Positions 1,031-64,000 of a DNA stretch of 64,000 nucleotides are shown piece after piece (position 1 is the stretch's first letter; each line of letters opens with the position of its first letter). Location of the stretch: positions 62,001 to 126,000 of the forward strand of contig CASEAG010000039.1 of assembly GCA_949285785.1 (NCBI GenBank), read 5' to 3'. The DNA is from an uncultured Spirochaetales bacterium. GTDB taxonomy: Bacteria; Spirochaetota; Spirochaetia; Sphaerochaetales; Sphaerochaetaceae. A program made the translations under genes and the position numbers. Under the pieces are notes generated by a model that did not search any database, was not told where the DNA came from, and saw only the letters and a list, made by a program, of their open reading frames with translations.

Positions 1031-1059
1031 TTGAACAAATCACCGAAGGCGAATAACAT
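1031..1059 (+). promoter_or_regulatory. promoter of the PRPP synthetase gene (leaderless type)
   Basis: TTGAAC (1031-1036) and TAACAT (1054-1059) are separated by 17 bases. The -10 box ends 7 bases before the ATG at 1067, so transcription should begin at or next to the start codon. I see no Shine-Dalgarno sequence at a normal distance. The rest of 932-1030 shows no gene. Confidence 0.55.
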
Positions 1060-8954: not shown

Positions 8955-8983
8955 ATGATAACCCTTTGCCGGCCGGAGAAGAA
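8955..8983 (-). promoter_or_regulatory. promoter of the ybaK-like gene (leaderless type)
   Basis: On the minus strand a TATCAT -10 box (8955-8960) ends 8 bases before the ATG at 8946. A weak -35 candidate, TTCTTC (8978-8983), is 17 bases upstream. The same TATCAT box is found at the same kind of distance before aroB. Confidence 0.4.
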
Positions 8984-19095: not shown

Positions 19096-19124
19096 ATATT
19101 ATCCCCCGATCGCGGTGAGTGCAA
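19096..19124 (-). promoter_or_regulatory. promoter of the first MATE gene (near-leaderless)
   Basis: On the minus strand TTGCAC (19119-19124) and TAATAT (19096-19101) are 17 bases apart. The -10 box ends 10 bases before the chosen start codon, leaving an untranslated leader of only a few bases. Confidence 0.5.
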
Positions 19125-26687: not shown

Positions 26688-26712
26688 AACTGCCAAAATA
26701 GCACAACGCGTC

Positions 26713-29428: not shown

Positions 29429-29466
29429 CCTTCCAAGAAAACGCGTTTAGAGGTACCCTTCTTCCT

Positions 29467-31921: not shown

Positions 31922-31950
31922 TTGCAAGAGCGCATCAAACGTGGTTGAAT
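31922..31950 (+). promoter_or_regulatory. promoter of the dtxR-like operon (leaderless type)
   Basis: TTGCAA (31922-31927) and TTGAAT (31945-31950) are 17 bases apart. The -10 box ends 7 bases before the ATG at 31958, so the mRNA should start at or next to the start codon. No ribosome-binding sequence is present between them. Confidence 0.5.
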
Positions 31951-54069: not shown

Positions 54070-55185
54070 CTAGAGCTCCCTGATGGCCTTGGCCAGGCCT
54101 TCCGCCTCTTCGATGGTGTTGTCACGCGAGAAGGATATCCTGATCGCACCGGAGGCATACCGGTCGAATCCGCATGCGCGGTAGATCGACTCCGCCTTGC
54201 CCCTTGCGTTGTTCGAGCACGCCGAGCCGGAGGACACCAGGTAGCCCTTGTCCTGGAGCATCCTCAGCGCCACCTCGGAAGGCAGCGGCGTGGCAAGCGA
54301 GAGTATGTATGGCGTCGTGCCGGTCTCGGGAGAGAGCACCTTGATGCGGCTTCCTGCCAGCGTGTCCCTGACGAGACGGTTCATCTTCAGTATGTGTCCG
54401 TCGTCCCTGTCGTCCAGCTGGCTGCAGGCCGTGGCCAGCGCCGCGATCGCCGGCAGGTTCTCCGTGCCTCCCCTGATGCCTCCTTCCTGCCCACCTCCAT
54501 GGGAGAGCACCTGGAGCCGGCCGCTGGCGAGGTATAGTATGCCGACACCTCTTGGCCCGTGGATCTTGTGTCCGGAGAACGAGGCCCCGTCGACGTCAAG
54601 ACCGGCGAGAGTGAAGTCCGTCTTGCCCAGGGCCTGCACGCAGTCGCTGAAGAAGAAGATTCTTCTGCCGAATTCGGCTTCCTTCCTCCTGATGACCTGA
54701 GACAGCCCTGCGATGTCCTGAATCGTTCCAAGGACGTTGTTTACGGCCATCACCGCGACAAGCCTGGTAGACTTCGTAAGCATTCCTTCCAAAGTCTCCG
54801 GGTCGACGAATCCTCCTCTGGCGGGTATCGTGCGCACACTCCAGCCCTTTTCCTTGAGTATGGGGACGTATGCGCTCACGGCCTCGTGCTCGATTGCCGA
54901 TATCAGGACCTCTCCAGGTGTCTTCGCCCACAGCAGGGATGACATGACGATGCCGATCGACTCCGTGGCTCCGCTGGTGAAGAAGATGCTTCCGCCCTTC
55001 ACGCCAAGGGCCTTCGCCACCCTGGAGCGCGAGTCCTCCAGCAGCCTGTGGCTATCGCGGCCCGCCTCATAGGATGCGGACGGGTTCGCCATGTATTCCA
55101 GCGCCGTATCCTCATATGTCTTCAGACATGCGCGGCTGATCGGAGTCGTTGCGGCATTGTCGAAATAACAGGTTTTCGTCTGCAT
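54070..55185 (-). CDS. cysteine desulfurase (IscS/NifS family)
   Basis: PLP enzyme that takes sulfur from cysteine as a persulfide. Seen: the N-terminal YFDNAATTPIS, the PLP lysine in SFSGHKIHGPRGVG, GGGQEGGIRGGTEN and the active-site Cys in SSGSACSNN. 371 residues. It is 3 bases from thiI, so its likely task is sulfur supply to ThiI; no iscU or suf genes are near. Start 55185 (MQTKTCYF) fits the family. It lies 7 bases after a CAGAAT box; AGG is the only purine-rich hint of a ribosome site. The frame is open 19 codons further but overlaps the promoter region. Confidence 0.92.
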   Translation of the reverse strand: MQTKTCYFDNAATTPISRACLKTYEDTALEYMANPSASYEAGRDSHRLLEDSRSRVAKALGVKGGSIFFTSGATESIGIVMSSLLWAKTPGEVLISAIEHEAVSAYVPILKEKGWSVRTIPARGGFVDPETLEGMLTKSTRLVAVMAVNNVLGTIQDIAGLSQVIRRKEAEFGRRIFFFSDCVQALGKTDFTLAGLDVDGASFSGHKIHGPRGVGILYLASGRLQVLSHGGGQEGGIRGGTENLPAIAALATACSQLDDRDDGHILKMNRLVRDTLAGSRIKVLSPETGTTPYILSLATPLPSEVALRMLQDKGYLVSSGSACSNNARGKAESIYRACGFDRYASGAIRISFSRDNTIEEAEGLAKAIREL

Positions 55186-55192
55186 GGCACCT

Positions 55193-55242
55193 ATTCTGTC
55201 CAATCGTGGGCAAAGACACAAGAGCGTCATGTGTGTTATCAT
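55193..55242. promoter_or_regulatory. divergent leaderless promoters of the desulfurase and aroB
   Basis: Minus strand: TTGTGT (55216-55221), 17 bases, CAGAAT (55193-55198), then 7 bases to the ATG at 55185. Plus strand: AAGACA (55213-55218), 18 bases, TATCAT (55237-55242), then 6 bases to the ATG at 55249. The two -35 boxes overlap, so the polymerases would compete for the 63 bases between the genes. Confidence 0.45.
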
Positions 55243-55248
55243 CGCATC

Positions 55249-56313
55249 ATGGGCATTGATCTGGATGTGACACTTCAGGGTGGCAGGACGACACGCGTGT
55301 TCTTCGTCGAGACCGTCAAGGATCTCTCTTCAAGACTGTCGGATTACGGGCAGCGCGTGCTCTGGGTCTTCGACGTGAACAGCGCCAGACTCTTCACATC
55401 CCTGCCGCAGAACAGCGTCATCCTGCCCAGCGGCGAGAAGTTCAAGTCCTGGGCCTCGATCGAGAAGATCCTTTGCGCCGCACTCGATGCCCATCTCGGC
55501 CGAGACAGTCTATTCATCGCCTTCGGTGGCGGTGTCGTGTGCGACATGACGGCCTTCGCGGCCAGCATCTACATGCGCGGCTGCGGCCTGGTGCTGGTGC
55601 CGACGACACTGCTGTGCATGGTGGACGCCTCGATCGGAGGCAAGAGCGCCATAGACTTCCACGGGGGCAAGAACCTCGTCGGCACCTTCTATCCCGCACG
55701 TGACGTCCTCATCTCGCCATCATGTCTCAGGACGCTTCCGGAGAGCGAGTACATGAGCGGTCTGGGAGAAGTGCTCAAGCATGCGTTCCTCGCATCCGAC
55801 AGGCAGCTGTACGACTTCCTCGTCGACAACAGGAAGGCAGTGCTTGCCCGTGATCGCGAGACGCTGTCCACCATGCTGCATCTCTCGCTGAAGGTGAAGG
55901 CCTCATACATCGAGCGCGACCCGGAGGAGAAGAAGGGCATCAGACAGGCATTGAACCTTGGACATACCTTCGCGCATGCACTCGAGAGTCTTGAGGACTT
56001 CCGGGTCAGACATGGGATCGCGGTGGCCTGGGGGCTTTCCAGGGCGGCTCACTGCTCCCTGGATGCAGGCGTCTGCGATGCCTCTCTCGTCGAGGCGGTG
56101 GATTCCCTGCTCAGGCTTTATGGCTTTGACATCGACAGAAGGGTGGAGCGGGGTCGCTGGCTGGACTTCCAGAGCGCGGTTGCCAAGGACAAGAAGAACA
56201 TCTCGGGCAAGGTGCGCTTCGTTCTGCTGGAGGACTGGGGCAGGCCTGTGCTCAAGGATCTTCCCTCCGCTCTCGTCCAGAGAAACGTCATAGCATCCGC
56301 CGCACTCAGGTGA
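55249..56313 (+). CDS. aroB: 3-dehydroquinate synthase
   Basis: Second enzyme of the shikimate pathway, converting DAHP to 3-dehydroquinate with NAD+ and a metal ion. Seen: the NAD-binding FGGGVVCDMTAFAASIYMRG near residues 90-109, PTTLLCMVDASIGGKSAID, the metal His and Glu residues in GLGEVLKHAFL and LNLGHTFAHALE, and a Lys-rich C-terminal site (KDKKNISGKVRF). 354 residues. Start ATG 55249 directly follows a TATCAT box with no ribosome site. Not followed by other aro genes. Confidence 0.94.
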   Translation: MGIDLDVTLQGGRTTRVFFVETVKDLSSRLSDYGQRVLWVFDVNSARLFTSLPQNSVILPSGEKFKSWASIEKILCAALDAHLGRDSLFIAFGGGVVCDMTAFAASIYMRGCGLVLVPTTLLCMVDASIGGKSAIDFHGGKNLVGTFYPARDVLISPSCLRTLPESEYMSGLGEVLKHAFLASDRQLYDFLVDNRKAVLARDRETLSTMLHLSLKVKASYIERDPEEKKGIRQALNLGHTFAHALESLEDFRVRHGIAVAWGLSRAAHCSLDAGVCDASLVEAVDSLLRLYGFDIDRRVERGRWLDFQSAVAKDKKNISGKVRFVLLEDWGRPVLKDLPSALVQRNVIASAALR

Positions 56314-63361: not shown

Positions 63362-63391
63362 TTGAGACGAAGGCCTGATGAGGAATATAAT
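63362..63391 (+). promoter_or_regulatory. promoter of the aminopeptidase gene (leaderless type)
   Basis: TTGAGA (63362-63367) and a perfect TATAAT (63386-63391) are 18 bases apart. The -10 box ends 7 bases before ATG 63399, which puts the RNA start on or beside the A of the start codon. No ribosome-binding sequence is present. This is the clearest leaderless case in the window. Confidence 0.7.
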
Positions 63392-63398
63392 CGTCGTC

Positions 63399-64000
63399 AT
63401 GAAAGACAGCAAAGCCGCAAAGGATCTCATCGGATTCCTCTCTTCATCTCCATCCACCTTCCACGTGGTATCGAACATGGCATCGGCGTTTCTTGAATCG
63501 GGCTTCACACGCCTGCAAGAGAACCGGCGGTTTTCAATCGCGAAGGGTTCGCGCTGCTTCGTCACGAGAAACGGCTCGTCCATCATCGCCTTCCGTGTGC
63601 CGGAAAGGCCGTTCAAGGCCATGCACATAGTCAGCGCCCATACGGACAGCCCGTGCCTGAAGATCAAGCCTGATCCCGTGGACATCTCCAGCGGTTCATA
63701 CGCCACGCTCAACGTCGAGACCTATGGCGGGCTCACCCTCAACACCTGGTTCGACAGGCCGCTGTCGATTGCCGGACGAGCCTTCGTAAGGACTCCAGAG
63801 GGCATCGAGTGCCGTCTTGTGGACTTTGGGCGCGACCTCGTATGCATCCCGAATCTTGCCATCCACCAGAACAGGGGTGTCAATGAAGGGGTCAGGATAA
63901 GCGTGCAGAAGGAGATGAAGCCCATCCTATCCACGGACATGGACAGACATCGCTTCATGAAGATGCTCTGCGACGATCTCGGCGTCGATGGCAAGGATCT
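63399..64000 (+). CDS. M18 family aminopeptidase (aspartyl aminopeptidase type), 3' end cut by the window
   Basis: Zinc aminopeptidase expected to remove N-terminal (often acidic) residues from peptides in the cytoplasm. Seen in the 200 residues present: FLSSSPSTFHVVSNMA at the N-terminus, IVSAHTDSPCLKIKP with the first metal His and its Asp, TYGGLTLNTWFDRPLSIAGRAF, and PNLAIHQNRGVNEG, all typical of the M18 family, whose full length is about 430-470. The ATG at 63399 follows a perfect -10 box by 7 bases. The second half of the metal site lies beyond the window. Confidence 0.9.
   Translation, partial: MKDSKAAKDLIGFLSSSPSTFHVVSNMASAFLESGFTRLQENRRFSIAKGSRCFVTRNGSSIIAFRVPERPFKAMHIVSAHTDSPCLKIKPDPVDISSGSYATLNVETYGGLTLNTWFDRPLSIAGRAFVRTPEGIECRLVDFGRDLVCIPNLAIHQNRGVNEGVRISVQKEMKPILSTDMDRHRFMKMLCDDLGVDGKD

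Follow-up and report, generated by a model that had tools for sequence, protein, structure and literature searches.

The window analyzed here, a stretch of 64,000 nucleotides from the genome (G000) of an uncultured bacterium of the Sphaerochaetaceae, ends within a gene for an M18 aminopeptidase and carries prs, a DtxR-like gene, aroB, a cysteine desulfurase gene (nifS), ybaK, cca and a first MATE gene. Each of these has a -10-like box close ahead of its start codon (Table 1). The gene names given in the original prediction were largely confirmed by Pfam, which backs M18, DtxR, prs, dehydroquinate synthase, a class V aminotransferase (cysteine desulfurase), a ybaK-type editing domain, cca, MATE and the activase; the gene called 'HTH/Fic-like', which follows the weak TACCCT box, had no Pfam match.

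Table 1. Predicted promoter elements and associated coding sequence in the window.
Feature	Position	Strand	Remarks
prs promoter TTGAAC-17-TAACAT	1031..1059	+	7 bases before ATG 1067; layout also kept in congeners and in other families
ybaK -10 TATCAT	8955..8960	-	8 bases before ATG 8946; TATTTT-7-ATG in G001, TAAGAT-8-GTG in G011
First MATE gene -10 TAATAT	19096..19101	-	10 bases before ATG 19085
cca -10 TATTTT	26695..26700	-	7 bases before GTG 26687; TATCTT-8-GTG in G011
TACCCT, weak case	29454..29459	+	7 bases before ATG 29467; same box and spacing in G011; protein without Pfam match
DtxR-like promoter TTGCAA-17-TTGAAT	31922..31950	+	7 bases before ATG 31958
Cysteine desulfurase (nifS) promoter TTGTGT-17-CAGAAT	55193..55221	-	Coordinates inferred from spacings; 7 bases before ATG 55185
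aroB promoter AAGACA-18-TATCAT	55213..55242	+	6 bases before ATG 55249
M18 -35 element TTGAGA	63362..63367	+	Read from the sequence; G011 has TTGAGG in this position
M18 -10 element TATAAT	63386..63391	+	7 bases before ATG 63399; TATAAT or TAGAAT 6-7 bases before ATG in 8/8 congeners
M18 aminopeptidase coding sequence, predicted leaderless	63399..64000, runs past window end	+	Pfam PF02127

The arrangement originally read upstream of the M18 gene, TTGAGA and TATAAT separated by 18 bases with the ATG 7 bases on, was found letter for letter, and the boxes described for prs, dtxR, aroB, cysteine desulfurase, ybaK and cca were all present. Among eight congeners the M18 box reads TATAAT, but TAGAAT in G008, at 6-7 bases from the ATG. 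A second in-frame ATG at 63378, the one picked by our own start caller, would put TATAAT inside the gene. This start was ruled out by three relatives, G001, G012 and G009, which keep TATAAT-7-ATG but lack any in-frame start ahead of it. Outside the genus, the matches to the M18 query were mostly from Clostridia MAGs, which may reflect horizontal transfer.

The other loci vary in how well the layout is kept. The DtxR-like gene has TTGAAA-17-TTGAAT-6-ATG in G011; a -10-like box lies at 6 bases in each of G004, G007, G006 and G003, and the reading is ambiguous in G001 and G008. A further DtxR-like match (G000:C38:7435-7692) is weak, contains two in-frame stops and is possibly a decayed copy. For aroB, a TANNNT box at 6-7 bases was found in G008, G001, G005, G004, G002 and G006 but not in G007; of the eight readable genomes of the genus, seven keep the layout. 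The CAGAAT box of nifS is kept in G011, G008, G001 and G004, at 7, 9, 9 and 7 bases, respectively. aroB and nifS are divergent (55185-55249), with about 63 bp between the two predicted leaderless starts; since their -35 boxes overlap, the two promoters may compete. The distance from box to ATG of the MATE gene is 10 bases in G000 and 7 in G011.

We extended the analysis to 777 kb of the genome, in which 694 genes were called by a coding model without upstream signals. Counting the raw pattern TATAATN{n}ATG over the genome gave too much noise for a clean peak, and counts anchored to genes were used instead. A strong Shine-Dalgarno (SD) peak stood in for the anti-SD sequence, 16S 3' ends not having been recovered. 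Over the 694 genes, occurrences of TANNNT peaked sharply 6-8 bases ahead of the start codon, and those of TTG peaked at positions -37 to -35. A box this near would put the transcription start on the start codon or no more than some 5 nt from it. In genes without an SD site, 78 of 348 carried TANNNT at 6-8 bases against 10.4 expected from the other spacings (p 8e-41), with 24, 39 and 15 boxes at spacings 6, 7 and 8 over a background of about 3 per position. The peak was almost restricted to these genes: the corresponding counts were 1, 5 and 0 in SD genes and 1, 1 and 0 in genes less than 10 bp behind a gene on the same strand. With a looser box and looser choice of start, 150 cases were observed against 59 in dinucleotide shuffles of the upstream DNA. 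The recurrence of the architecture proposed from a few genes thus holds genome-wide, and so does the proposed coexistence of two initiation modes, as both appear when the plot is split by SD; SD initiation serves about half of the genes and coexists with the leaderless starts. The excess over other spacings amounts to 9.2% of all genes (19.4% of non-SD genes), or 11.9% with a looser box and flexible starts. This share of 9-12% is approximate because the start codons were home-made and several of the named cases (M18, aroB and cysteine desulfurase) were miscalled by our own caller.

Conservation was assessed for the G000 cases by reciprocal best hits in two congeners. The orthologues in G011 keep the arrangement in 13 of 21 cases against 9 of 182 other genes (p 7e-10), and those in G001 in 6 of 10 against 3 of 67 (p 6e-5). 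G001 is AT-richer and has a weak genome-wide peak, with a strict excess of 2.1% of all genes that falls to zero with a relaxed box; the case for G001 therefore rests on the non-SD subset and the orthologues. That the boxes are chance matches in an AT-poor genome, chosen by eye, is next to inconceivable. The loosest named cases, TACCCT and CAGAAT, do mean little on their own, but the genome-wide plot refutes chance as a general explanation, and the orthologues conserve the arrangement, even the odd CAGAAT box being kept in four congeners.

Promoter hallmarks were examined in the set of 77 strict cases. The gap between a -35 TTG and the box was 17 in 19 cases, 18 in 10 and 16 in 3, with 0-3 cases at each other gap, and a TGn extension was found ahead of the -10 box. 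C occupied position -1 in 69% of strict cases compared to 30% of the other non-SD genes, and a pyrimidine in 68/77 compared to 136/271 (p 3e-10). Bacterial RNA polymerase usually prefers to start on a purine (+1) that is preceded by a pyrimidine (-1); by this preference +1 would fall on the A of the ATG. The strict cases also tend to head a transcription unit: 47 of the 77 are divergent from their neighbor and 20 more have at least 50 bp upstream, while 3 lie within 20 bp of a gene on the same strand, compared to 163 of 330 SD genes. Seen from the other side, they make up 67 of the 375 genes that lead a transcription unit. These features bear on the idea that the TA-rich motif is no promoter at all, and instead an unstructured or S1-binding site that aids ribosome loading on leaders without SD. 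AT-rich signals 5' of non-SD genes have been so interpreted in some phyla (PMC5397173), and rpsA (S1) is present here as usual. However, S1 binding would account neither for a second element, TTG, spaced 17/18 bases from the box, nor for the TGn extension, the pyrimidine at -1 or the near absence of the motif from operon-internal genes, and we find this explanation very hard to credit.

An explanation that accepts the boxes as real promoters is that the true starts lie downstream, so that the genes are mis-started and their mRNAs have ordinary leaders. Start calling is indeed uncertain in this genome, the M18 gene with its two in-frame ATGs being an example. However, only 4 of the 77 strict cases offered an SD-preceded in-frame start downstream within 30 codons, fewer than the 56 of 330 among SD genes. 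The ATG and the codons that follow are moreover conserved, as in prs with MSIIKPHKLGVI across 13 species. Mis-starting would also leave without cause both the fixed 6-8 spacing and the enrichment of ATG, which is the start codon in 73/77 strict cases compared to 208/271 other non-SD genes (p 1e-4). We regard this explanation as very improbable.

The prs gene offers the broadest comparison. Read by eye, all 13 genomes of the genus have TTGAAC or TTGAAT, a spacer of about 17 bases, then a -10-like box with an ATG 6-8 bases on, although in G007, G008, G004 and the G005 group the exact place of the box allows more than one reading. Two genomes of other families (G014 and G015) have TTGACC-18-TATTCT-6-ATG, and a pattern search matched the same plan in further genera of family f1, further members of f3 and f4, and f58. 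Several families of the class share this promoter-to-start layout, and prs is possibly an ancestral leaderless gene. That core genes such as prs have been leaderless since before the families split in this part of the Spirochaetia, with the -10-to-ATG spacing selected for a distinct regulation through leaderless translation, is a doubtful extension of this. In two other families, prs matches were interrupted by in-frame stops (G018:C1:1526305-1527525 and G017:C1:2277030-2278266), representing decay, a frameshift or an assembly error.

In small samples from other families, no spacing peak was seen in G018 and G017, and weak peaks in G019 and G020. In 25 of the 27 genomes sampled across the class, TTGA...TATNNT is followed by an ATG after 6-8 bases more often than after 21-23 bases, and in f12, a family with small genomes, the ratio is close to 1; this comparison is rough, since counts in GC-rich genomes are small and the distant count includes real leadered promoters. 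Outside the class the tally covered chosen families only.

Altogether, the best explanation is that the genes with a -10 box 6-8 bases 5' of the start are leaderless or nearly so. With a probability of about 0.93, a promoter abuts the start codon of around one gene in ten in this spirochaete, and the mRNA is predicted to begin at or near the coding sequence. The motif, its spacing, its near-exclusivity to leading genes without SD and its conservation are direct observations, and the sequence evidence that the close boxes are sigma-70 promoter elements is strong; what we infer is where exactly the RNA begins and how the ribosome engages it. A sigma-70-type promoter would set its -10 box 6-8 bases ahead of the start codon, and RNA polymerase would start the transcript on the A of the ATG or at most 1-2 bases off. 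Lacking a 5' untranslated region and an SD site, the 5'-terminal AUG would be read directly by the ribosome, probably by an intact 70S with initiator tRNA if the analogy with other bacteria holds (PMC9031893). The leaderless layout would serve genes that head a transcription unit, and SD initiation operon-internal genes and many leading genes.

This is a well-supported new instance of a known mode of starting genes and not a new mechanism. The original prediction doubted that spirochaetes commonly use leaderless mRNAs, a doubt contradicted by two earlier studies, one of them on Leptospira, which probably belongs to another class than this spirochaete. Zheng et al. (2011; PMC3160421) predicted leaderless (TA-led) genes for 6 of 18 spirochaete genomes, with a share of 1.8-6.9%. 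As here, they are mainly leading genes, and TANNNT precedes the start by about 12 bp; the share of about 9-12% found here is higher, although the methods differ and the gap is only suggestive. In Leptospira interrogans, of the same phylum, dRNA-seq in 2017 mapped about 440 genes with a 5' UTR below 10 nt, half of these below 2 nt (PMC5243855). The 5' ends were measured there and are predicted from sequence here, and whereas we observed a clear -35/-10 pair, no shared promoter motif except sigma-54 emerged from that study. In Deinococcus-Thermus a TANNNT just before the ORF acts as promoter of leaderless mRNA for about 30% of ORFs (PMC12340547); a -35 box need not be present there, whereas TTG at 17/18 shows a clear enrichment here. 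Our analysis would add a lineage in which the share is somewhat higher, the -35/-10 signature is clear and single predicted leaderless promoters are conserved between species and families.

Gene callers that expect an SD site may misplace starts in this lineage, as our own upstream-blind caller did for the three genes named above. Whether leaderless starts are ancestral or arose repeatedly could be tested on the conserved prs promoter, a concrete case that spans families. With these predicted starts, a little-studied spirochaete lineage would join the routine users of leaderless initiation.
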